64,000 nucleotides of DNA. Source: Bolinopsis microptera. Taxonomy: Eukaryota > Ctenophora > Tentaculata > Lobata > Bolinopsidae. Location of the stretch: positions 7,585,001 through 7,649,000 of the forward strand of contig NC_087073.1 in NCBI RefSeq assembly GCF_026151205.1, read 5' to 3'. Position 1 is the stretch's first letter. Each line of letters starts with the position of its first letter. The notes beneath the pieces were generated by a model, which had not been told where the DNA came from, ran no database searches, and saw only the letters and a list, made by a program, of their open reading frames with translations. Shown piece by piece: positions 1,295 to 62,430 of this stretch. The translations under genes and the position numbers were made by a program.

Positions 1295-3529
1295 ACGGGT
1301 TATTATTGAAAAGAAAATCAGAAATACAGAACTGTGGCGCATCATTTTTCTGAAGCATAACGTTTCCCTTGACTCTCAATAACTACGAAATTTATTTGGG
1401 CTTTATTTGGAATTCATCACTGAACTCGTCCGCCAAATAAGTGGGGTTAATTGTACTTATCGCAACGCATAACTATCTTTAGTTTTCCTTACTATTTATT
1501 GCAGTCATTAATCCATTAATTATGCAGAATATTTGCTGAACTATTGGCGCAGTCTAACCTATAAAATCAGCCAGTGTAGTATGTACTTGAAAATATACCA
1601 GGAACTCAATGTTTATACAAACACTGCACCACGCTGAAAACACAACTTTAGGTTCTGAGTAAAGTTGCTATTTTGTGGCTTTTAATTACCGTAGAGCCAA
1701 AGCAGTTAGAAGTAGACTACAGGTCATGCGGTATGTGGATCTGGATGGTTTGGTTGATGATCGTGTTTGCCAAATGTTCGGTTGTCGGGGTGGTGTATAA
1801 TAGTTCTGGTTGTTTAGTTGTTATTCTGTAAAAGCTCATTATATACCGTGCTGCTATCTATATCCTGCATGGTTCGGTTCTGATGTTGGGAAATTGATGA
1901 TACCTGGTTATTTAGTTGTCTTTATAATTTTGTAAGTACCCAGCACTGTAATTGTATATATATTGTATATATTGACTATATTGGCTTGTGTATAACGGTT
2001 GATTACAAAAAATGGAGTGTTTTGCATTGACTATCAGTATTTCTGTTCAAAATTGTCCAAATTTTAACACTGTTTCATTGATTTTGACCACAAATGAATT
2101 GATCGACCCGATAAAGGGATCTGAACAAAATTCCATTTTTTTTGTAATCACCCATGTATATATTGGCGATAAGCGTTTGGAAGTTATTGACAATTACTTA
2201 GCTTAAAACTAAACTAGCAATTGTATATTATGTTGAATATAATACATCTACATATTATCGCCTCTTTATTTGAGCGTAATAAGTTATACCTTAATTTAAT
2301 TATGTTTTGATTTCAAGAAAAAGTTAACAATCTTCACTTCAGGTGGCTCTCAATACGAGTTTCAGTTTGTTTTCCAAGTAAGTTTCTAACGAGTCAATCC
2401 TTTCGATTTTACTTGATCACAGTGCCTTCAGCTATTGGCTAGCTAGGGTGTTTTGATATATAATCAATAATTTTAATACTTTGATAAGTTATAGATTGAT
2501 TACTAACCGTCTGCTAGACGGCTTTTAACTTTCAGTACAAAATTACTACTAACTAGACTGACTATAGATCAAACAAATACTAACGCTTCAAGAACAGTCA
2601 CAGTCTAGATTTAGTTTAGCTTTAACTCGGATTTGAACTGACGGCAGTACTGTCTGAAGCTAGAGGATATTCTGAAGTACCTGTTAGTATTTCTGTGTCT
2701 TATTATAACCACTTCCCTACCTCAGTTTTTCTCGAAGATGTAAATTACTGGCCACGGATGAGGTTGAAGGTGTTCGTTACAGATGGGATAGCCGAGTTCC
2801 CGCAACGCAACTTTAACAATGTGTGGACATATTAGGATACAGAATATGAGATGTAATCATAATGTTACCATCTTTCAAACACCGCTTCATTGGCTCTACC
2901 CTTTACTTAGTCTTCTTTGCGACCCTGTTTCTGACTTGATTTTGCGACTAGATATATGGATTTTTATCTGTCGAGACGTTTTGAGCGATGTGATTCAAAG
3001 GATTCGATTCACAGTCGTGGTATTAATTTGAATTAAGTAGGAGCGATTTGAATTACATGTTTATTTTTCAACTTGAGGGGTTATTTGTTTGAATAATTGT
3101 TGTCGTGGAATCAAGTAATAGGGACTTCGGCATTTATAAGTTTAGTCAGTTTACAACCTTCAACTTGGAGTTATCTTTAGATTTAAAATAAAGTTTAATA
3201 ACACTAACAGTTCAAAATGAAGATTTTTTCCATCTAGATATAGTTCTACCTTTTTTTCTTTCTTTTTTTTAATTAGAAGGGGATTTAGGCTTCTCTTTTG
3301 TCATACACGCACATTTTGACGAAACATTTTGTTTTCTTCTGTGATATTGTTGATTTCTAACTGTTAAGCTGTATTCAACTTTTTCATTTTGTCTTGATTT
3401 CAAGTTTCAACCTTCCCCGTATATACTGGTCCACCAATACTGTTTCACGACTCACGTGGGGAACTGTATTGTCTTTGGAATATACTGCGCTCCTTTTTTA
3501 TTTTATGCCTGTACCCAATGGTAATACAA
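1295..3529. other. AT-rich intergenic DNA, no gene seen
   Basis: About 2.2 kb with only short frames (70 codons or fewer), no recognisable protein family, no convincing exon with good splice sites, and no copy of the repeat families found elsewhere in the window. Confidence 0.6.
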
Positions 3530-14787: not shown

Positions 14788-16009
14788 CTCTTTTTGATTA
14801 TTATGTCAGGGTACTTTATAAAGTCGAAATATAAACTGATATCTTCATTAATAAGGAGGAAGTTTCAACGATTTCGAAATTTTTCCTTTAAAAACATTTC
14901 CTTGTGTTTAGGGAAGCATATCGGTCGATCACTGACTGAATATGCCACTTAATATTCATTCAAGTTGGCATTAAATTCATATATAATGACATTAAACTGT
15001 CGTGGCATTAAGCAGAATTTGTTGGAAATCACGAATGAGCAAAATTCTCACCTTTCGCACGTGCAAACTTTGAGCGGACATTGCGTGCGCATCCAATATT
15101 GAATTGCCGTACATTTTTGCATGTAATTGTTTTATATATAGCTTGATAAGCATGAAAAGTTTCAAAGTATTTCAAGAAGAACTGTAATCACAACGGCAAT
15201 CTAAAGTTGACAGAAAATGACGAAAACAGCAATTTCAGTGATTTTAGCAATTTTCTATCAATTTGGGCGTGTCCCCACGTGTGCAACTTTTCGAATTTTA
15301 ACTTTAAAACTAACCTAATGCACAATTTATACCTATAGGAAGCAGAACTGAGCTCCACAACCCAAGGCATGGCCCAACACCAGAGAATACTAAATCGCAA
15401 AATTGACGTTTATATAAAATAATTCTTCAAAAAAGCACAAACTTCAATGACGAATATCTTTATGAAGGAGCAAGCTAAAAAAACTTTCCGGTAGATTTTC
15501 AGAATGCTTGAACAATTATCTAAGATGAAAATTTCCTCAGATTTTGAATACAATTACTCCTTAATGGTTTAAAATTAATTTTAAAAGTTATTACTTTGTC
15601 AAAAATCAAGTTTTAAAAACGGTTAACTTGATGACGTCATCAAGGGGTGTTTATGACGTCAAATAATTTTTGTATACAATGTAAACTAAAGTGTAAACAA
15701 TTATTTGCAAGACCTGTGGTCGGAAATGGCTGTATCTTTTATACTTTTGAATCTATGGACACTTAAATACAGGCTACAATTGACTGGCAAAGCGTCTATC
15801 CCTGAATATGTATCACGACAATCTATCGTAAAACAGGGGTTCTAGAAAACCCATTTCCCGATGCTCCTGAAACCTGAAACTTTTTTTGCAGTCGATTTGG
15901 TCAACGTCTAGACGCCCTGAAAAATTTCAGATCTCTAACTCGATTTTAACATGGTTTTTAAGGCACCTGAATATGGCGATTTTGGGTTTTTTACCGAATT
16001 TCGTATAAC
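14788..16009. repeat. Composite repeat body, copy 1
   Basis: About 1.2 kb without a gene. It is paralogous to 57906-58249 plus 61258-62150. The second copy is split by a 3-kb DNA transposon, and this copy supplies its empty site (GCATGTAATTGTTTTATATA near 15118-15137). Confidence 0.85.
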
Positions 16010-42838: not shown

Positions 42839-45800
42839 TTACGGATCAGATGTAGAGGGATCAAAAGTAGAGAGATTGGAAGGAGAGGGATAAGAAGGAG
42901 AGGGATCAGAAGGAGAGGGATCAGAAGGAGAGGGATCAGAAGGAGAGGGATCGAATGGAAAAGGATCGGAAGGAGAGGGATCAGAAGGAGAGGAATCGGA
43001 AGGAGAGGAATCAGAAGGAGAGGGATCGGAAGGAAAGGAATCAGAAGGAGAGGGATCAGATGGAGAGGGGTCAGAAAGAGAGGGATCAGGCGGAGAGGGA
43101 TCAGAAGGAGAGGGATCAGAAGGAGAGAGATTATATGGAGAGGGATCAGAAAGAGAGGGAACAGAGGGAGAGAGATCAGAAGGAGAGGAGTCAGAAAGAG
43201 AGGGATCAGAAGGAGAGGGATCGGAAGGAGAGGGATCAGAAGGAGAGGGGTCAGAAAGAGATAGATCAGAAGGACAGGGATCGGAAGGAGAAAGATCGGA
43301 TGGAGAAAGATTGAAAGGAGAGGGATCGGTAGGATAAAGATCAGAAGGAGAGAGATCAGAAGGAGAGAGATCAGAAAGAGAGGGATCGGAATAAGAAGGA
43401 TCTGAGGGAGAAGGATCAGAAGGAGAGGGATCAGATGGAGAGACATCAGAAGGAGAGGGATCAGAAGGCGAGGGATCGGAAGGAGAGGGATCGGAGGGAG
43501 AAGGATCAGAAGGAGAGGGATCGGAAGGAGAGACATCAGAAGGAGAGAGATCAGAAGGAGAGGGATCGGAAGGAGAGAGATCAGATGTAGTGGGCTCGGA
43601 AAGAGACAGATCGGAAGAAGAGGGATCGGAAGAAGAGGGATCAGAGGAGGTAAACCAATCAATGGTTATGGTAGAAAGTTTCGCAACTTTATAAAATATT
43701 TTAGCTGGGTAAAATTTAACCATATATTTTTTCAATCGGGCGCTGTATATGAAAGGATTGATAACTGAGTTTATTGGAAGTATGACAATAGAAAAGAGGC
43801 TGTACTGCGCTGAAGCGTCAATAACACCGAAGTAGTGAAGACCACTCACAATCACGAATGGTATCCAGCAAACAAAGTTTGTACCGATGATAGCAGCTAT
43901 CTTTCGTTGTAGTTTTTGGTTCCTCCTTCGGACCATTTTGGACGTTGGGGTCTTTCCCTTTGTCAGAATGCCGGAATCTTTAATTGTTTTGGCGTTTATA
44001 AAGATATACGAAATAGCAACTATGGCAAAACAAAGAATGTTAATTGATAAAATTGTCAAACTGAACTGTCTCTGAGGATCATTCTGGCGAACAAAATATT
44101 TGAAGAGACACACTCCATCGTTACCATAAAAGTCAACCCTTCCTACTTTTCCATCCAAATTGCCATAATCATTTGAAAACATAGTCCTCATAAGACTCAA
44201 GATAAGTGACCACTTCAATGGCTGCCTCTTTGCCCTGCCAAAGTACCGCTGGATCACATCAAAATGCCTATCCTTTCCAGCTTGTTCGATAAATAGCTTC
44301 ATGTCAGTATCGTAGGTCAATCCATTTACAAATAAGTCTTCGAAATATGGAAGCAAGGGTGCAAGAGCAATTAATGAGGTCACAATAATCACAGGAAATA
44401 TCATCACCACAAACTGAACGAGAATTTTTGTAAAGCTCAATCTCAATCCAGAATTTGATCCCACCATACTGTTTTGAATACCAAAAACTCGACAGATACT
44501 GAGAATAGCTAACGAAACGACAGAGATCTGACTTCCAATCGTGCTGATTACCCCCAAAGCTGAACAATATTTACTACTCAGCCATTTCAACTGCCTTTTG
44601 CAGAAGTTTGCACCATATGTATAGTCAACAATTGCTAATGAAAATAGATACTGTCCGGTTAGGAAGTCTCCGATACTAATAACCATAATCATTATCTTGT
44701 TTGCCAGCATTGTGCGAGATTTGCATTTCTTCAAATCCGCCCCATTTTCAACCATAACAACGATATTAAAAATTGTCGCAAGGAAACCAATTCCAAAAGC
44801 GGCAATTTTTTGAGCTAATCCATTTATCACCTGCTTACCACACTCTTCATTACACTCATCCGACCAATCTTCACAATTTGCGGTGCCGTCACATTTTTGG
44901 GTGATTGGAATAAACGCACCACCACATTCGAAATGGTTTCCACAGTTCAGTTCATCTGAACTATCCCCGCAATTGTCAACCAGGTCACAGACTTTAGAAT
45001 ACTCCACACACAGATTGTTGGTGCAAGGGAAGTAATCATTGGTGTATTTTCCTGATTTTTTACTGACGAAAGTGAGGTGATTGTTATTGACCAATGTGTA
45101 GACTCTGTCCTTAAACTGGTCTTTGCAATCATTGTACTTAATTGAACTTGTGATAGGGCATTTTGTTGAATGCAGACACTTCCCAAGACAGCTCAAATAG
45201 ATGTAAACTTCTCCATACAGATGGTTACAATTATACAGCATATTTGGATATATTACTTGCATCCTGCTGTAGACTCCATAGATAGTTTCATTAAAAACAT
45301 TAAACTCATCAGATATGCAAGAACTCTGCTGGTGCTCAACGTCATGCAGGCCTTTGACGCAATAAGAAATAATTTTAAAAGTCTCAGCCGTATTAACCGT
45401 TGTAGAGACTCTTGTTTTGCCTCTACTCATTTCACATATGTTATTTTCATTTCCGCATGTCTCGAGGCCATCACATAGATCAGGCAGCTCAATGAATCCA
45501 ACACGTTCGTATGAGCGGCATAAAAACACGTCTTGACAGTCTGGATTCTTTTTTGTGGCAAAACGTGTTGTTGCATGGAAACCACATGTAGGCCAATAAG
45601 TAGAATTTTCATCGAGACCGCCAAGACAGTCTTCGAGACCGTCGCCAAGCCATGATGTAGGAATACTTAAAGCTCCTTCGTGTCTGTAGTTCCTATAGCA
45701 TCTCTCCTCAGTCATCGAGAGACACTCTGTCATGTCTTCGTCACTTCCATCCCCGCAGTCCTCCACTCCATCACATAACTGGTGTTTGTGGCAGGTGCAG

Positions 45801-48800
45801 TCAGCTGACGCCTCGATACACTGCAGGTCCATCTTGTTCTCGCAGAGTCCTCTCCTCACTTCGCCACACACCATCATTTTAGAGACAGTGCTAAAACCAT
45901 ACTCTTGGATATGGCACCTCACAGCTACTTTATTGAGGTCACTACAGTTAGTTTGGTCCATGTAATTTGAGCAATACGGCTTTACATAGAGCCCAGAACT
46001 AGAATTAGTTCTCTTGAAACCGGACATACCGGTGATGAAGTTGAAACCTTTACTGGTGGTGGCTGTGTGGTGGAACAATAGTGCAGCGCACCGGGTAAAA
46101 TTGAATATGGGTCGGATAAATCTTTCGGTTCTTTTATATTTGGTGCTGGTACAGGAGGGAAAGTTGCTATCAATTGCAGGCTCACAAAACGATTCTTCAC
46201 CTTTGGATAGTCCTGCAATCACACAGCCATGGACTCCATCACAAATTCCTGTGGGTTCCATGTATATGCGATTGTGACACCAAATTCCGTATCTGTAGCC
46301 ATTACATTCACTTTCATCTTCACAGCTTTCCATTTCACATATATTGTTACAGATTGTCGATATGGAATTTTCTTCTTGTTCCACCTTTGGACATCCTATC
46401 TTTCCCAGGTTGGGAATGTTAGAGCAATTTATCTGTCGAGAGCATATCTCTCTAACAGGAAGTGCTTCAAGAAGTCGACCGGCCAGCTTACAAAGGAAGG
46501 ATCCGCAGACAGAAATTTCATCATGGTCAGAAAAAACATTCCAATCAGCATTTGAACCACAAACCTGCAAATACGAAATTGAATTGTAGTCGAGAATGCA
46601 TTCTTGCATTGTAAATACAGTGAAGTAAAGTGAAGTAAAGAGGAATTCTTTAATACGGAGGTGCTTTGTTAAATTCTCATAATGAAATAAAATTATTAGC
46701 TGCACATAAATATATTGACGACACATCTTACAACACTTACCATCATCCTACAACACACATTCTAATTCCCTTGGCATCCTACCATAGGACTGTCATACCC
46801 CAGAGGTAGGCAAAGCATCCACATGCTATCCTTTCGTGGACCACCCAGGCCCAGCCTCTCTTTTAAAAAAAGGAAAAAAAAGTATATTGACCTGAATGGA
46901 AAGCAAAAAATAAAATTCATTACCTGGTAGCCGAATGGGTCATTGCTACAAGTTGCATTAAACAGATTGGACCCCATGAACTGTAATTTATCCACAATCC
47001 AGTACGTCTCATCCGAGTAGGGACACTTGTACACATCAAATCCGTCAAAAATATTAGAGCAGGCAGTTTGTAGAAAACCGTTTGTTTCCTTAATCTTGCA
47101 AGACTGACCTCTCCCTGAAAATGGAGAAGAGGCTAGAGCTGTAGCGAGCTTGAAAAAATTAGCTGCAAAGTGAATTGTCACGATCAAAATATCGTATATA
47201 CAGGGTGGGCCACAAAAGACTACCCATCCTTATCTCTTAAAATTGTAACAGCTCGCTGAGATCTCACTAATTATTTTATTTCAGAATGGAAAAGCGCCAT
47301 AACTTACGTTCTGATTAATATTTTTGCTTCAAATTTTAAGAGAATGTCAATCATAATTAGACACAACTTCGTGCCAAGTTTTGTGTGAGTCTGAGCTTGT
47401 CTGACAAAGTTACCTCCTGAGCGTGCTAGCTTTAATTTCTCACCCAGAACTGTTTACATTGGTTAATAGGAACCACCAAAAAAATCCTGGGTAAAAAAAT
47501 CAAAAAACCACCGGTTTATTTATGTTTTACCAATTCTATTCAGCATGATCCATTGCACATTCCATGCGAGAAGAACGATATAAACAAGCAGGAAGGATCA
47601 TCTGTGATAGTCCTTATCAGTTAAAATATAGAGAGAATGGAATGTGCGATGTATCATGGTGAATAGAATTGGTAAAACGTGAATAAATCGCTGGTTTTTT
47701 TATTTTTTACCCAAATTTTTTTGTGATTTCTTTTAATCAATGTAAACAGTTCTGGGTGAGAAATTCAAGCTAACTCGCTCAGGGGCTAAATTGGTCAAAT
47801 AAGCTCAGTGAAGCTCGCAATCACACAAAACTTGCCACAAAGGTTTAGCTACTTGTTATTAACATTCTGTGAAATTTAGAAGCAAAAATATTTATCAGAA
47901 CATAAGTTATGCCACTTTTTGTTTTTAAAATAATTATCAAGATCTCAGCGAGCTGTTACAATTTTAAGAAATAAGGATGGGTAGTCTTTTGTGGCCCACC
48001 CTGTATATATATGTATATTATGTATATATAATACATATATTGTTAGTCAGCCACAACTGTCAGTAAAACAACGCCTTGACTTCAAATGTCGGTAAAATAT
48101 GCCTTTACAGTCATCCTGATATAAAGACATGTCAAAACATTAATTATGCAATCAATCAAATAAATAGAAATTAAAAATTTAGAAATTAACGTAGCTCAGC
48201 AATTCAAATTACTGGTGGGTGAAAATCCCAAATGAGTGGTAGAGGTGAGAACTAAGATGAGAAGTACGGACTCGTTTAGGGGGAAAAGTACGTACTTGTA
48301 CGCAACTTTGAAAAGTCCGACTCATACAACGTACGATTCAGATAGAAATTTTGGTTTTTGAATTATCATCATCGGGGCCGTTGTAAAATGTAATTGTTAA
48401 TGGCCGATGTTAGAGAAAATATACCGTTCGCGAACAAATTGAACACAGAATTCTTAGGCCAGGCAAGCATTTAAAAGTAAAACAAAAATTCTAAAAAATT
48501 ACTCGACAATTTACTTATTTAAACAGCTTGTTTCTCTTAAAGTTAAAATTTAAGTTAATCGACGATTGGAATATAGAAACACAAGTTTTTGAAAACGCTC
48601 AATATTAGTCCGTAACATGCGATTTAGAACTCTTCCATCGATTTCTAGAAGGAGAACTTTTCAGTAGAATTGAAAAGTACGTACGATACGAGTAAATTGA
48701 GAAGTCCGACTCATTCGTACTTCTCATCTTAGGGTGAGAAAATACAATATGCAGGGAAAAAATATATATATCGTATATATATATATCAGTAGTCAATGAC

Positions 48801-50548: not shown

Positions 50549-53500
50549 CTACGGATCAGATTTAGAGTGATCAGATTTAGAGTGATCAGAAGGATAGGGA
50601 TCAGAAAAAGAGGGATCAGAAGGAAAGAGATCGGAAAGAGAGGGATCAGAAGAAGAAAGATCGGATGGAGAAGGATCGGAAGGATAGGGATCAGAAAGAG
50701 AGGGATCAAAAGGAGAGAGATTGGAAAGAGAGAGATCGGAAAGAGAGGGATCGGAAGAAGAAAGATCGGATGGAGAAAGATCGAAAGGAGAGGGATCGGT
50801 AGGAGAAAGATCAGAAGATGAAAGATCAGAAGGAGAGATATCGGAAAGAGAGGGATCGGAAGAAGAAGGATCGGAGGGAATAGGATCAGAAGGAGAGGGA
50901 TTGGAAGGAGAGATATAATAATGAGAGAGATCAGAAGGAGAGAGATCAGAAGGAGAGGGATCAGAGGAAGAGGGATCAGAGGGAGAAGGATCAGAGGGAG
51001 AGGGATCGGAAGGAGAAAGATCGGAAGGAGAGGGATCGGAAGGAGAAGGATCCGAGGGAGAGGGATCGGAAAGAGAGGGATCAGAACAAGAGGGATCGGA
51101 AGGAGAAGGAACCGAGGGAGAGGACTCGGAAGGAGAGGGATCAGAAGAAGAGGGATCAGAAGGAGAAGGATCAGAAGGAGAGGGATTGGGAGGAGAGGGA
51201 TCAGAAGGAGAGGGATCGGAATAAAAGGGATTGGAAGGAGAGGGATCGGAATAAGACGGATCGGAAGGAGAAGGATCAGAAGGAGAGGGATCGGAAGGAG
51301 ACGGATCAGAAAGAGGGGTAGAAGGATCCAATGGATCAAGGGGAATGCAATCGATGGGATTGGGAAGAATTTCGGCAACTTTATAAAATATTCTAGCTGG
51401 GTTAAATATAACCATACATTTGTTTAAAAAGGTGCTGTATATAAAAGGATTGATAACTGAGTTTATTGGAAGTATGACAATAGAAAAGAGGCTGTACTGC
51501 GCTGAAGCGTCAATAACACCGAAGTAGTGAAGACCACTCACAATAACGAATGGTATCCAGCAAACAAAGTTTGTACTGATGATAGCAGCTATCTTTCGTT
51601 GTAGTTTTTGGTTCCTCCTTCGGACCATTTTGGACGTTGGGGTCTTTCCCTTTGTCAGAATGCCGGAATCTTAATTGTTTTGGCGTTTATAAAGATATAC
51701 GAAATAGCAACCATGGCAAAACAAAGAATGTTAATTGATAAAATTGTCAAACTGAACCGTCTCTGAGGATCATTCTGGTGAACAAAATATTTGAAGAGAC
51801 ACACTCCATCGTTACCATAAAAATCAACCCTTCCTACTTTTCCATCCAAATTGCCATAATCATTTGAAAACATAGTCCTCATAAGACTCAAGATAAGTGA
51901 CCACTTCAATGGCTGCCTCTTTGCCCTGCCAAAGTATCGCTGGATCACATCAAAATGCCTATCCTTTCCAGCTTGTTCGATAAATAGCTTCATGTCAGTA
52001 TCGTAGGTCAATCCATTTACAAATAAGTCTTCGAAATATGGAAGCAAGGGTGCAAGGGCAATTAATGAGGTCACAATAATCACAGGAAATATCATCACCA
52101 CAAACTGAACGAGAATTTTTGTAAAGCTCAATCTCAATCCAGAATTTGATCTCACCATACTGTTTTGAATTCCAAAAACTCGACAGATACTGAGAATGGC
52201 TAACGAAACAACAGAGATCTGACTTCCAATCGTGCTAATTACCCCCAAAGCTGAACAATATTTACTACTCAGCCATTTCAACTGCCTTTCGCAGAAGTTT
52301 GCACCATATGTATAGTCAACAATTGCTAATGAAAATAGATACTGTCCGGTTAGGAAGTCTCCAATACTAATAACCATAATCATTATCTTGTTTGCCAGCA
52401 TTGTGCGAGATTTGCATTTCTTCAAATCCGCCCCATTTTCAATCATAATAACGATATTATTGTCGCAAGGAAACCAATTCCAAAAGCGGCAATTTTTTGA
52501 GCTAATCCATTTATCACCTGCTTACCACACTCTTCATTACACTCATCCGACCAATCTTCGCAGTTTGCGGTGCCGTCACATTTTTGGGTGATGGGAATAA
52601 ACGCACCACCACATTCGAAATGGTTTCCACAGTTCAGTTCATCTGAACTATCCCCGCAATTGTCAACCAGGTCACAGACTTTAGAATACTCCACACACAG
52701 ATTGTTGGTGCAAGGGAAGTAATCATTGGTGTATTTTCCTGATTTTTACTGACAAAAGTGAGGTGATTGTTATTGACCAATGTGTAGACTCTGTCCTTAA
52801 ACTGGTCTTTGCAATCATTGTACTTAATTGAACTTGTGATAGGGCATTTTGTTGAATGCAGACACTTCCCAAGACAGCTCAAATAGAGGTAAACTTCTCC
52901 ATACAGATGGTTACAATTATACAGCATATCTGGATATATTACTTGCATCCTGCTGTAGACTCCATAGATAGTTTCATTAAAAACGTTAAACTCATCAGAT
53001 ATGCAAGAACTTTGCTGGTGCTCAACGTCATGCAGGCCTTTGACGCAATAAGAAATAATTTTAAAAGTCTCAGCCGTATTAACCGTTGTAGAGACTCTTG
53101 CTTTGCCTCTACTCATTTCACATACGTTATTTTCATTTCCGCATGTCTCGAGGCCATCACATAGATCAGGCAGCTCAATGAATCCAACACTTTCGTATGA
53201 GCGGCATAAAAACACGTCTTGACAGTCTGGATTCTTTTTTGTGGCAAAACGTGTTGTTGCATGGAAACCACATGTAGGCCAATAAGTAGAATTTTCATCG
53301 AGACCGCCAAGACAGTCTTCAAGACCGTCGCCAAGCCATGATTTAGGAATACTTAAAGCTCCTTCATGTCTGTAGTTCCTATAGCATCTCTCCTCAGTCA
53401 TTGAGAGACACTCTGCCATGTCTTCGTCACTTCCATCCCCGCAGTCCTCCACTCCATCACATAGCTGGTGTTTGTGGCAGGTGCAGTCAGCTGACGCCTC

Positions 53501-54823
53501 GGTACATTGCAGGTCCATCTTGTTTTCGCAGAGTCCTCTCCTCACTTCGCCACACACCATCATCTTAGAGACAGTGCTAAAACCATACTCTTGGATATGG
53601 CACCTCACAGCTACTTTATTGAGGTCACTGCAGTTAGTTTGGTCAATGTAATTTGAGCAATACGGCTTTACATAGAGCCCAGAACTAGAATTAGTTCTCT
53701 TGAAACCGAACATACCAGTGATGAACTTGAAACCCATACCGGTAGTGGCTGTGTGGTGGAACAATAGTGCAGCGCACCGGGTAAAATTGAATATGGGTCG
53801 GATAAATCTTTCGGTTGTCATATATTTGGTGCTGGTACAGGAGGGAAATTTGCTATCAATTGCAGGCTCACAAATCGATTCTTCACCTTTGGATAGTCCT
53901 GCAATCACACAGTCATGGACTCCATCACAAATTCCTGTGGGTTCCATGTATATGCGATTGTGACAATAAAGTCCGTATCTGTAGCCATTACATTCACTTT
54001 CATCTTCACAGCTTTCCATTTCACATATATTGTTACAGATTGTCGATATGGAATTTTCTTCTTGTTCCACCTCTGGACATCCTATCTTTCCCAGGTCGGG
54101 AATATTAGAGCAATTTATCTGTCGAGAGCATATCTCTCTAACAGGAAGTGCTTCATGAAGTTGACCCCGCTTACAAAGGAAGGATCCGCAGACAGAAATT
54201 TCATCATGGTCAGAAAAAACATTCCAATCAGCATTTGAACCACAAACCTGCAAATACGAAATTGAATTGTAGTCGAGAATGCATTCTTACATTGTAAATA
54301 CAGTGAAGTAAAGTGAAGTAAAGAGGAATTCTTTAATACAGAGGTGCTTTGTTAAATTCTCATAATGAAATAAAATTATTAGGTGCACATAAGTATATTG
54401 ACCTGAATGGAAAGCAAAAAATAAAATTCATTACCTGGTAGCCAAATGGGTCATTGCTACAAGTTGCATTGAACAGATTGGACGCCATGAAATGTAGTTT
54501 TTCCGCAATCCAGTACGTCTCATCCGAGTAGGGACACTTGTACACATCAAATCCATCAAGAATATTAGAGCAGGCAGTTTGTAGAAATCCGTTTGTTTCC
54601 TTAATCTTGCAAGACTGACCTCTCCCTGAAAATGGAGAAGAGGCTAGAGCTGTAGCGAGCTTGGAAAAATTAGCTGGCTTAATGCTGCAAAGTGAATTGT
54701 CACGATCAAAATATCGTATATATATATATTATATATCAGTTCTGATTTTGTACCTGAATCAACGATAAATGCAGGAGTGAGAATGATGAATTGCATCAAC
54801 GAGATCGTATAGCCTTTGAACAT
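50549..54823 (-). pseudogene. LDLa-GPCR copy 2, three frameshifts
   Basis: E1 54754-54823 (signal peptide MFKGYTISLMQF), E2 54435-54625 and E3 50549-54247 keep all splice sites and nearly the same sequence as gene 1. Within E3 the frame breaks three times relative to gene 1: one T lost near 52745, four bases lost near 52456, and one T lost near 51671. The breaks fall in the last LDLa region, in TM1 and between TM5 and TM6. The tail of S-P-S-D-P repeats (50580-51320) is still open. Either this is a young pseudogene, or the two homopolymer losses are assembly errors; the four-base loss is harder to excuse. Confidence 0.85.
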
Positions 54824-57905: not shown

Positions 57906-58251
57906 ATATCATCTCTTTTTGATTATAATCTCAGGGTACTTTATAAAGTCAAAATATAAACCATAAACTGATATCTTCATTAATAAGGAGGAAGTTTCAA
58001 CGATTTCGAAATTTTTCCTTTAAAAACATTTCCTTGTGTTTAGATAAGCATATCAGTCGATCACTGACTGAATATACCACTTAATACTCATTCAAGTTGG
58101 CATTAAATTCATATATAATGACATTAAACTGTCGTGGCAAAGCAGAATTTGTTGGAAATCACGAATGAGCAAAATTTTCACCTTTCGTACGTGCAAACTT
58201 TGAGTGGACGTTGTGTGCGCATCCAATACTGAATACTGAAATTTTTGCATA
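57906..58251. repeat. Composite repeat body, copy 2 (left part)
   Basis: Matches 14788-15120. Interrupted at 58250 by the 3-kb transposon and resumed at 61256. Confidence 0.85.
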
Positions 58252-58563
58252 CCTTAGGTGCAAAAAATTTAATGCCGAAAAATTTCAGCTAAACTCAAAA
58301 CGCGGACGAAATTTTCCGGCATTAAATTTTTCGTCGACGAAATTTTTTAACGACGAAATATTTGGGACGCCTATTTTTTTGGTATTTTTTGCATCATTAA
58401 ATTTTGAAAGTTAAAATTGAGTACATACGAATTAATTCAACTTCAGTTAATAATCTAATTTTGAATGATTCATATTTCATACAGTATAAGAATTGAAACA
58501 TTTCATACCAAAATGATCATAATATCGTAATACTAATATCATAACATTTCTCGCCATCTAATT

Positions 58564-60009
58564 CTACATTAAATCCGCGAATGGATCCAGTTCACTGACA
58601 AAGTTTTCAGAGGCGGCATCGGTTATTCCTGCTTTGGAAAACCCTTTAATCATGTCGTCTTTTCTAGTTGATAGAAAGTTGTAGGTGTCTATGATCCATT
58701 CTGCGTGGAGCTTCTTTATCTTGGAAATCCTTGTATCGACGTCAATGTTGTCCTGATTAATACCAGCAGCTAGCTGTGTAGTAATACAGGTCGCGTAATA
58801 CTTCTCATACTGGTCTCTCATGTGGCTCTTTACTAAACCATTAATCGAAACGTCCAATGGTTGAAAAATATGCGTCAAATTTGGAGGCACCTTTTAGACG
58901 ATCATATTGAGAGATTCATACAGTGTTAACACTTCCTGAGTCTGCTGCCCCCTGAATACGTCCGATATTATTAGGCTCTTCTGTTCAGGAGGCAATCCGA
59001 GCTCTTGTTTCGTCTTCTCGATATAAGGAGCCAGTATCTTCAATACGTAATCTTTTGAAGTGTTCTCGTTAGACCAGTGGTTTGGAGTCATAGTCAGATG
59101 AAAGCCAGTGGGAAACTGAACCCCTTTCGGCAGACAGCGGTTCGTCTTTCCCTCATAAATAAGTTGAAATGGCAACAACTTCCCCGAAAGTGTGACCGCA
59201 AGATTTCCCGTGATTTGACGCTTGTCTGAACTTCCTGCTATCGGGACTATTGATGATCCCCGCGGAGCCATGGTTCTGCTGCTGACGCTTACGTACTTAA
59301 GCGGTGTTTGATCGTGATTAATGATCAAATCTTCGGGGATTTTATGCTCTTTAACGATTTTATTGATATCACACTGGAAGCAAAGTTTTACTTCGGATAA
59401 GACACCCTCTGGCACAGGAAGTCGGGCTGTTGTGGCTACTCTTTTTACGAGCTTGACTTTCTTCCTCCTCTCATAATGATAGAGAATTTGCCTAGAGGAC
59501 TCGTATGCCACTTCGTAATTAGAGTTGTGCTGTAGTTGTTTGAGAACCCCTTTCAAAACACCTCTGATGACACAACCTTTAACGATGGCCCCTCGCAACC
59601 GCAGGACATCCAAGATCTCTAGCACTTTATCAATTACAGTATCTGGAATGAGCGTTGGACGGCCTCTTTTCTTGGTTTCTAATTCATTTACAATCAGGTC
59701 TCTCTCAATACTGCTCAGTTTGTCGATCATCAACTTCTTGAAGGTCTGAGCAGTCTGACGGGTTAAGCTGGGATGTTGCTTCTTAAAGTGCTTCGCTGCG
59801 GCAACAGCACCATGTACCCTCGCGTAGTTTCCTATATCTGCTCTATCTTTAGCCGTCCACTTGTTATACTTTCCTTTCTGCTCAGCTTTCGCTATTTCCT
59901 TGTTTACAGCGGCTACGAACTGGGGTGTATTTGCAGGTAAATCATTCGAATCCAGGTTTACAGGGACACCGAAGAAGTGACGAATATCGGTTCGTGGCAT
60001 CGAAGACAT
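58564..60009 (-). CDS. Pogo/CENP-B-like DDE transposase (one in-frame stop)
   Basis: Likely start at 60009 (MSSMPRTDIRHFFGV); an in-frame upstream ATG at 60090 is also possible. The N-terminal half has helix-turn-helix-type regions (AKAEQKGKYNKWTAKDRADI; TRQTAQTFKKLM) and a basic ELETKKRGRP segment. The catalytic core follows: DLIINHDQTPLKYV (first Asp), SSDKRQITGNLAVTLSGKLL, KSLIISDVFRGQ (second Asp), then VPPNLTHIFQPLDVSINGLV (third Asp). Together these are a DDE-1 endonuclease. A TAA codon at about 58891-58893 separates the last 108 codons, including the third catalytic Asp, without changing the frame. As sequenced, the product would be inactive unless the stop is polymorphic or an error. 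About 480 residues in all. Confidence 0.85.
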
Positions 60010-60407
60010 ACTGCAGCGGTTACAAACTGTGATATTTCCTGCAACTGCACACCAACGTATACAACAGAACAAGGGTAGAACTACACTCAAAGAGAAGGGA
60101 GCCCGATTCGATACTTTCTTTTACAATCCAAGATATTTGTGAACGTGATTGAGATACCCGTCTTGATGTTTGAGATCAGGGATCATTGCTGAGACTTTTG
60201 TCTGCATAAAAAACGCTAAAATTCCAGAGAAAGTGTGAAGCTGCATGATCAAGCTTGATGGCCAGGTTCCAAATCAAAATTTACGTACAAATGAGACTAA
60301 TATAAGATTTCTGTAATCTGATTTCTATGCGAGTACTGGCTTCTTCCTAATTAACCGGAGCTCACAATTCCGCCTTTTCACACTAGCAATTGTTTACGTT
60401 CAAGTTC
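60010..60407. promoter_or_regulatory. Divergent upstream region of the transposon genes
   Basis: About 400 bp between the two start codons, AT-rich, without a recognisable TATA box. It must drive both genes if the element is transcribed from within. Confidence 0.4.
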
Positions 60408-61091
60408 ATGTCAGTAGAAGCTGTTTTTAAAACTGTTATAGCCAGTCGTGGCTTTCATGTTTACATGAAATCGACATGGCCGAAGCCAGATCTTAGCGAC
60501 AAGCTCAAAGTTCAACTGGATAAAGATAACAATGACGACCCTTTTGCGGTAGCTGTTATTAAGATCAATAACACGAAAGATAAATCAGCAGCTGGAGAAG
60601 TGGTGGGACACCTTCCGAGAGAAATAAGCAGGCATGTTCATTTCTTCATAAAGTTAGGCGGGAAAGTCGATGTCTCTGTTTATGATGTTAAATTACATAA
60701 AAGTTTGACAGCCTTGAAAGGTCTTGAAATACTACTGAATGCGTCGTTCAGAATCTCTGGGGCGAAAAAATTCGCAGTACTCGAGAGGCTTAAAGATCAC
60801 ATAGAGAGCAACTATAAAACACCTGTTAGAATTGTTGGAGTAGAAGAGGACGCAGCAAACAACTCTTCGGATAAAGCTGATGAAATGGAGGCAGGAGCGA
60901 AGGTAGACAGCAATTCTTCCAACAACGCTACAGTATCAGGAGCAGAAGCAGTGAGCAGTTCTTTGGACAAAGCTATTAATGAAGGAGTAGTCAGAAATTC
61001 CCCGGACAAAGTTGATAAGGTTGTCTACTACCAAATTTCTGACGATATAAGTAGCTCCGACTGTTCTGATTTAGAAGTAATTTTTGATTAA
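60408..61091 (+). CDS. Transposon-borne HIRAN-domain protein
   Basis: 227 codons from the ATG at 60408 to TAA. Residues about 1-105 fit the HIRAN domain: ASRGFHVYMKSTWPKP near the start, NNDDPFAVAVIKI, VVGHLPREISRHVHFFIKLG, GKVDVSVYD and LKGLEILLNASF. In HLTF this fold binds 3' single-stranded DNA ends. The C-terminal half is acidic, Ser/Asn-rich and probably disordered. There are no introns. Its start faces the transposase start, and it lies wholly between the element ends, so it travels with the element. A role in handling excision or integration ends, or in escaping host repair, is inference only. No breaks. Confidence 0.8.
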   Translation: MSVEAVFKTVIASRGFHVYMKSTWPKPDLSDKLKVQLDKDNNDDPFAVAVIKINNTKDKSAAGEVVGHLPREISRHVHFFIKLGGKVDVSVYDVKLHKSLTALKGLEILLNASFRISGAKKFAVLERLKDHIESNYKTPVRIVGVEEDAANNSSDKADEMEAGAKVDSNSSNNATVSGAEAVSSSLDKAINEGVVRNSPDKVDKVVYYQISDDISSSDCSDLEVIFD

Positions 61092-61255
61092 TTTATTTTG
61101 AAATATATGTTTTATTGGTTTCCTAAATGTCTAAATTTGACAAAAATAGGACGAAATATTTCGCAGACGAAAAGTTTTGTGAGCAATTGACGAAATTTTT
61201 CGGACGAAATATTTCGGAATAGTTTTTTTCGCGACGAAATTTTTTACACCTAAGG

Positions 61256-62430
61256 TATATTTGTTTTATATATAGTTTGATAAGCATGCAAAGTTTCAAA
61301 GTATTTTAAGAAGAACTGTTATCACAACGGCACTCTAAAGTTGACAGAAAATAACGAAAACAGCAATTTTCAGTGATTTTAGCAATTTTCTATCAATTTG
61401 GGCGTGTCCCCACGTGTGCAAATTTTCGATTTTAAACTTTAAAACTAGCCTAATGCATAATTTATACCTATAGAAAGCAGAACTGAGCTCCACAACCCAA
61501 GGCATGGCCCAACACCAGAGAATACTAAATCGCAAAATTGACGTTTTTATAAAATAATTCTTCAAAAAAGCACAAACTTCAATGACAAATATCTTTATGA
61601 AGGAGCAAGGTATAAAAACTTTCCGGTAGATTTTCAGAATGCTTAAACAATTATCTAACTTCAATATTCCTCAAATTTTGAATAAAATCAATTCCTAATG
61701 GTGTAACATCGATTTTAAAAGTGATTACTTTGTCAAAAATCGAGTTTTTAAAACGGTCAACTTGATGACGTCATCAAGTGGTAATGATGACGTTAAATTA
61801 CTTTTTAATATAATGTTAACTAAAGTCTAAACAATTATCTTCAAGACCTGTGGTCCGAGATGGCTGTATTTTTAAAGCTTCTGAATCTACGGACACTTGA
61901 ATATAGCCTATAATTGACTGGCAAAGCGTCTATCCCTGAATATGTATATATTATGTATATATCACGACAATCTGTCGTAAAACAGAGGTTCTAGAAAACC
62001 CATTTCCCGATGCTCCTGAAACTTGAAACTTTTTTTACAGTCGATTTGGTCAACGTCTAGACGCCTTGCAAAGTTTCAAAATTCTAACTTAATTTTAACA
62101 TGGTTTTTAAGGCACCTGAATATGGCGATTTTGGGTTTTTTACATAATTTCGTATAACATGCTGGCGCGTATTTTGCGCAAATTTCTTAAAAACCTCCAC
62201 ATAACTATTTCTTATTCCTGTCATCTTTAACATTGAATTAGAATGTTTGAACTTAAATATACATGCTGAACTATTTTCGATGAGTCTTAATGCCTGGAAA
62301 ACAATAAAGGGGTATAAAAGTAAAGGGGGTAAATTGTAAAGGGGGTAAATAATAAAAGGGGTAAATAGTAAAGGGGGTAAATAGTATTGTGAATATAAAA
62401 GGCACGGTCATGCTTGCCAGCATTGTGATA
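61256..62430. repeat. Composite repeat body, copy 2 (right part) and MITE
   Basis: Matches 15125-16358, including a CAGTGCTGGC-type MITE at about 62157-62424 with AAAGGGGGTAAATAGT units. This MITE lacks the GC-rich hairpins seen at 16159-16222. No gene. Confidence 0.85.

Follow-up and report, generated by a model that had tools for sequence, protein, structure and literature searches.

Harbinger is a two-gene DNA transposon that encodes a transposase and a Myb-like protein. Passer transposons are described as a single transposase gene in the available passages of one report (PMC9976928), and the N-terminus of the Passer transposase carries BrkDBD and/or HTH_Tnp_Tc5 motifs (PMC7386202). The HIRAN domain is described, in passages of two reports, as recognizing forks or damaged DNA and not a sequence (PMC4666394, PMC11706625). 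According to the same passages on HLTF, it binds fork-like DNA, and Asn90-Asn91 is required for ultraviolet tolerance and postreplication repair (PMC4666394). In human HLTF, excerpts of another report state that HIRAN takes the protein to the released 3′ end, stripping Cas9 from cut DNA, and that the free, motor-less domain inhibits both Cas9 stripping and resection (PMC11237066). The HIRAN domain of Rad5 binds PCNA, whereas PCNA binding by that of HLTF was undetectable, as given in part of a further report (PMC7804152). Free-standing HIRAN genes beside HipA and dinucleases are mentioned for bacterial genomic islands in passages of PMC11706625. How broken ends are handed over from cut-and-paste transposons to host repair is poorly understood. 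In this study, we analyzed a 64-kb stretch of the Bolinopsis microptera genome (NC_087073.1, positions 7,585,001 to 7,649,000; the window), which contains a transposon with a DDE_1 transposase gene and a HIRAN gene. This element is almost certainly one family of a two-gene transposon clade of pogo type (DDE_1, DD35D, TA) in which the second gene encodes a stand-alone HIRAN protein. The window family is designated A, and the other families B to H.

The original prediction had described clean ends, a TA duplication, subterminal repeats, and two divergent genes inside the element, and each of these was borne out. The element spans 58252-61255 (3,004 bp), with TA directly outside both ends. TA is followed by CCTTAGGTG at the left junction (start 58252), and CACCTAAGG is followed by TA at the right junction (end 61255). 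The terminal 11-mers with the adjoining TA occur once each within the window, and the ends sit in an imperfect inverted repeat of 34 nt (85%). GACGAAA is found 14 times on the + strand of the window, eight of them within about 150 bp of the element ends. When the flanks of the element were joined, they matched window positions 14920-15320 in 372 of 402 columns (93%). The junction was gap-free, and the closest gap was one of 2 bases, about 16 bases to its left. Positions 14920-15320 are a paralogous empty site. Because this site has TG in place of the TA of the element, a TA duplication in the clade is demonstrated more cleanly by a family-G element inserted within a family-C copy, for which an uninterrupted C copy (L088) shows a single TA.

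The transposase gene of the window copy is divided by one stop at about 58894-58896 into an N part (58897-60009) and a C part (58564-58893). In the family A copy on C4 the frame is open, with 518 amino acids (aa), or 481 aa counted from the first Met; the transposase lengths were 481, 486, and 499 aa. DDE_1 (PF03184) was matched in A (E 1e-9), B (3.4e-8), C (3.8e-9), the C part of E (2.9e-8), and the C part of D (1.7e-12), and the cut-off of 22 bits was exceeded in all five families. The N part of the D transposase gave no PF03184 match. The second and third Asp of the D-D-D triad are 35 residues apart (DD35D) in all five families, which is the spacing reported for pogo. A search of the transposase against PDB sequences returned zero matches at E<=1. 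Judged by DDE_1, TA, the terminal inverted repeats, and DD35D, the transposase fits the pogo superfamily. The pogo-like assignment proposed earlier thus holds for the catalytic domain, the triad, and the target site, but the DNA-binding motifs of Passer were undetected in the four N-terminal regions scanned (A-D).

The identity of the second protein as HIRAN, also predicted earlier, was upheld by a PF08797 profile search and by the predicted fold. All five family proteins matched PF08797 at E<=1 (best 4.1e-6), and the proteins of E (28.0 bits), C (27.3 bits), and B (26.8-27.1 bits) exceeded the curated cut-off of 24.7. The structure prediction gave the beta barrel with helix expected of a HIRAN fold over residues ~1-135, followed by an acidic low-confidence tail from ~147. 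By profile and predicted fold together, the identity of the protein as a HIRAN domain is considered secure. The second Pfam match of the window protein was a weak one to a Suv3 helicase-domain (14 bits against a cut-off of 27), and neither SNF2 nor RING was found in the Pfam scan of its 227 aa. The motif NNxYD is present in B and E, the same as in HLTF, and in our reading the aligned Asn pair may correspond to N90 and N91 of HLTF. One scan of viral contigs with the HIRAN alignment found no relatives.

We then examined how strictly the two genes are paired. The HIRAN protein gave 85 genome matches at E<=0.01. Four families other than A also carry both genes: the element measures 4.14 kb in B, 4.10 kb in C, and 3.48 kb in D, and in these three as well as in E the HIRAN frame and the DDE_1 transposase lie within TA-CCTTA...TAAGG-TA. 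A divergent gene arrangement is seen in A, B, D, and E. Family E is interrupted by a stretch with reverse-transcriptase-like open reading frames (by eye), the D transposase is split over two frames, and families F, G, and H were found as deletion copies or fragments only. The ends and subterminal sequences vary from family to family. In pairwise comparisons the C-terminal transposase parts were 26-51% identical and the HIRAN proteins 27-55%, and the closest pairs were A/C and B/E for both genes. A probe taken from the N-terminal and central portions of the D transposase had 13 genome matches. Ten lay in elements that also hold HIRAN (three A, four B, and one each of C, D, and E, the transposase C part of E being 5.1 kb off owing to inserted sequence), and the remaining three were C deletion copies without HIRAN. 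The ten paired transposases include non-intact ones, with a stop in the window copy and in one B copy, an insertion in the C3 copy, and interruptions in D and E. Overall, 13 of 77 transposase matches had a listed HIRAN match within 20 kb and 64 had none. We inspected nine stretches of these 64 (L084-L092). Seven contained both ends of an internally deleted element, 0.9-2.1 kb long and of C, E, or G type, and two contained one G-type end, with no HIRAN match at E<=0.1 in any of the nine. Many of the other 55 coincide with C deletion copies.

These results bear on whether HIRAN is a gene of the element at all. One alternative is a transposon inserted by chance beside a host HIRAN gene, for which no supporting observation was found. 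HIRAN lies inside the terminal inverted repeats in families A-E and recurs there at unrelated genome places, so that this explanation is contradicted by the copies, and random proximity of all ten pairs within 6 kb has negligible probability, with the proviso that the loci are not independent. We therefore rejected the chance neighbor or host gene, whose probability is close to nil. HIRAN as cargo of a single element was also rejected, because the genes are paired in five divergent families; the part of the earlier cargo proposal that stands is that the protein is stand-alone and encoded within the element.

Copies of the window family and of family B were then compared. Family A has three full-length copies, namely those in the window, on C4, and on C3. 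The C4 copy contains about 290 extra bases (C4:10990702-10990990), and the C3 copy about 630 inside the transposase (C3:19425639-19426266). These insertions are bordered by match overlaps of 8 and 12 bases, respectively, and the overlaps may reflect target duplication by other mobile elements. The HIRAN proteins of the three copies are identical across the 226 residues compared. In four shorter A copies, of which C10 has two and C1 and C6 have one each, an internal deletion near 450/2109 takes out most of the transposase and ends just short of HIRAN. When the B element was used as a DNA query, 120 rows were obtained, of which 45 were under E 1e-40 and yielded 25 copies: four whole elements, 19 two-piece internal deletions, and two one-piece fragments. 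The original prediction asked whether HIRAN is always present in other copies. This was the case for all four whole B elements, which hold both genes (a 529-bp insert is present in one of them and a transposase stop in one), but not for 18 of the 25 B copies, which lack the whole frame and are all deletions or fragments, none spanning the whole transposase. Among the two-piece deletions, a whole HIRAN frame was present in 3 of 19 and a whole transposase in none. HIRAN is thus lost in deletion copies like other internal sequence and retained in complete elements. Special retention of HIRAN in deletion copies, an idea prompted by the A deletions and the three B copies, was rejected, since only 3 of 19 B deletions kept it and C deletions lost it.

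All 19 B deletions have differing junctions, and their pieces are 95-100% identical, mostly 99-100%; family B, which is young, therefore seems to make new deletions very often. The junctions overlap by 0-2 bases in 11 of 19, contain 1-14 extra bases in five, and overlap by 6-31 bases in three. They resemble the outcome of gap repair broken off after excision, and a protein that binds DNA ends could be of importance at this step. Among short derivatives, family G elements (L091:3000-3870, 871 bp, with transposase remnants) had 1,710 candidate places, of which 40 were scored, and their number is presumably large. For family D, a short derivative in which 1-259 adjoins 3151-3482 was frequent among 40 scored of 401 candidates.

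Selection was assessed in 15 HIRAN pairs from the five families and a D-like sequence (L054). The proportion of synonymous differences (pS) was 0.69-0.90 and that of nonsynonymous differences (pN) 0.17-0.53; D against L054 gave pN 0.17 and pS 0.86 over 103 codons. Transposase pairs were similar (A/C, pN 0.37, pS 0.83). No exact ratio is given because the synonymous sites are saturated. As judged from these alignments, the HIRAN protein is clearly constrained between families, in agreement with the purifying selection raised by the original prediction. Of the seven HIRAN frames compared in family B, six are equally long and differ by two amino-acid changes in total, and the seventh (C8) is two codons shorter.

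Several points weigh against these readings. On its own the window protein scored 23.1 bits, and the window family 23.1-23.6, just under the PF08797 cut-off. Profile searches of PDB sequences found HLTF at E 0.07-0.13 only, and the family E protein alone found nothing relevant there; because these matches were marginal, the HIRAN identity was decided by the fold search. The Asn pair is one residue nearer the Asp in A and reduced to a single Asn in C (DNPED); in D and F it is either absent or displaced. DNA binding may therefore differ between families, and this variation argues against one mechanism for all of them. At the position of the window HIRAN start ATG, GTG is found in the C4 copy, the one with the open transposase, and the family C genes are in tandem. 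The transposase and HIRAN identity matrices correlate with r 0.72, and since an equal or better value was reached by 7 of the 120 relabellings (counting the true one), the congruence is suggestive only. The family, copy, and pairing results come from one genome. Finally, short C, D, and G copies without intact HIRAN have spread. Their large numbers would suit a passenger, that is, a host HIRAN gene captured once by an ancestor, with no transposition role and perhaps some other benefit to host or element; other copies could also supply HIRAN in trans. The distribution would be accounted for if the capture had taken place once, in one lineage. However, a useless frame should decay, yet conservation of the protein extends over five families whose synonymous sites are saturated, and the HIRAN-less transposase matches of the D-probe search are deletion copies only. 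We regard a passenger as very unlikely.

We propose that the HIRAN protein is a transposition cofactor. The transposase would cut at the CCTTA ends and expose 3′-OH DNA ends, and the HIRAN protein would bind 3′ ends at the excised transposon, at the donor gap, or at both. We lean slightly toward such a role in transposition through 3′-end binding. Protection is its most likely specific role by analogy: motor-less HIRAN may protect the ends held by the transposase, or the gap while it is being repaired, against premature remodeling or resection. This shielding model was chosen because the motor-less transposon protein best fits the inhibitor form of HIRAN, of which it would be a natural counterpart. 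That it shields specifically against HLTF/Rad5-type remodelers is a tentative suggestion. It is similarly speculative that HIRAN encoded by the clade antagonizes fork or break remodelers, caps 3′-OH ends made by the transposase, guards the cleaved complex and the donor gap against stripping or resection, and decides when host repair begins. A transposon lineage that supplies a dedicated repair-interface factor of its own, with the end-binding fold of the damage-tolerance enzyme HLTF, would be rare. Some stand-alone HIRAN genes in animal genomes might then be transposon genes, and the protein could offer a genetically encoded end-protecting helper for genome-engineering transposons.

Another possibility is that HIRAN loads the transposase on the ends or carries it to the nucleus or to sites via protein contacts, and not by 3′-end binding. 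A conserved second gene is the working mode of several two-gene DNA transposons, as with the Myb-like protein of Harbinger. The C-terminal ends of HIRAN are acidic in all five families (L034, L040, L041, L048, and the window; by eye), which suits protein contacts. Those of A and C finish in short hydrophobic-acidic stretches, LEVIFD and DDVIELPE, which resemble SUMO-interaction motifs and are treated as a lead only. Pfam showed no DNA-binding motif in the four transposase N-terminal regions scanned (A-D), which would also leave room for such a cofactor. The ends and subterminal sequences are, however, family-specific, whereas HIRAN is described, in the passages cited above, as a binder of forks or damage and not of a sequence. 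We consider an assembly or targeting cofactor unlikely. A PIP-box-like motif, [IL]xx[FY]F, opens the transposase N-terminus in four of five families (TDIRHFFG, MDIRSFFQ, MSLHRYFQ, and MSLHRFFQ). PIP-box and SUMO-interaction motifs were sought by eye and by simple pattern, and the core/tail split worked for two of five proteins. As a lead, this motif would fit replication coupling, in which HIRAN would attach to fork ends or to PCNA and the transposase N-terminus to PCNA, and the element would gain copies by moving from a replicated to an unreplicated site. On the other hand, the motif lacks the usual leading Gln, and family B, whose copies include intact and near-identical ones, does not show it (MSVRNLLGYY). 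Passages on Rad5 HIRAN binding PCNA (PMC7804152) and on HLTF HIRAN binding fork-like DNA (PMC4666394) are in favor, but HLTF HIRAN had no detectable PCNA binding in the former, and none of the papers searched contained both "pogo transposase" and PCNA. Replication coupling is distinctly unlikely, and a role through 3′-end binding remains our preferred reading.

The features of the element are collected below. The region between the two genes may serve as a promoter region common to both.

Features of the window element and its empty site (window positions)
Feature	Position	Strand	Basis or remark
Target site duplication TA, left	58250..58251	.	Paralogous empty site
Left terminal inverted repeat, CCTTAGGTG...	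58252..58282	+	Imperfect further in
Left subterminal GACGAAA repeats	58305..58358	+	At 58305, 58336, 58352
DDE_1 transposase gene	58564..60009	-	Met at 60009; one stop splits N part and C part
Intergenic region between divergent genes	60010..60407	.	
HIRAN protein, 227 aa	60408..61091	+	ATG 60408; Pfam profile, predicted fold
Right subterminal GACGAAA repeats	61150..61239	+	At 61150, 61166, 61189, 61203, 61233
Right terminal inverted repeat, ...CACCTAAGG	61225..61255	-	
Target site duplication TA, right	61256..61257	.	
Paralogous empty site	14920..15320	+	93% to joined flanks, TG instead of TA

Elsewhere in the window, two neighboring genes on the - strand (42839-46726 and 50549-54253) are alike by eye. 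The first is an uninterrupted frame of 1,295 aa that gave matches to LDLa and to rhodopsin-type receptors (7tm_1) and has a long tail of Ser-Asp-Pro repeats. The second has at least three broken frames, two of which were scanned and gave no Pfam match at E<=0.001. Positions 5-1382 form a long repetitive stretch in which all three + frames are open, with Tyr/Ser/Ala-Pro-Leu-type repeats. A tRNA gene search of the 64-kb window found none.

Among the papers searched, none contained both HIRAN and pogo as whole words, although a Repbase entry may exist, and papers on the HIRAN domain with a transposable element or transposase were on other subjects, as judged by their titles and in part by passages. 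Among known systems, the clade resembles Harbinger in joining a transposase to a small conserved accessory protein. Harbinger differs in its transposase superfamily and its Myb/SANT accessory, whereas the accessory fold here is known from DNA-damage tolerance. Unlike HLTF and Rad5 (PF08797), the protein found here is stand-alone and transposon-encoded, has an acidic low-confidence tail, and has no SNF2 motor and no RING. The HIRAN proteins of bacterial islands, as far as the available passages describe them, are likewise stand-alone and close to mobile DNA, but they are prokaryotic, lie outside any DDE transposon, and have other partner genes. Passer is the nearest pogo family by triad and size, compared by its published description. 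It belongs to the pogo superfamily of the IS630-Tc1-mariner group and shares DDE_1, DD35D, the TA duplication, and a transposase of 400-500 aa (PMC7386202, PMC9976928). Passer elements are 1.6-4.0 kb long and those here 3.0-4.14 kb, so that B and C are slightly longer, and most Passer terminal inverted repeats are shorter than 30 bp, compared with the imperfect 34 nt of family A. Unlike in Passer, neither BrkDBD nor HTH_Tnp_Tc5 was detected at E<=0.1 in the N-terminal regions of the A-D transposases. Because of these undetected motifs and the presence of a second gene, we did not file the clade as Passer; where Passer has a single gene, the clade described here has a second, HIRAN gene in five families.
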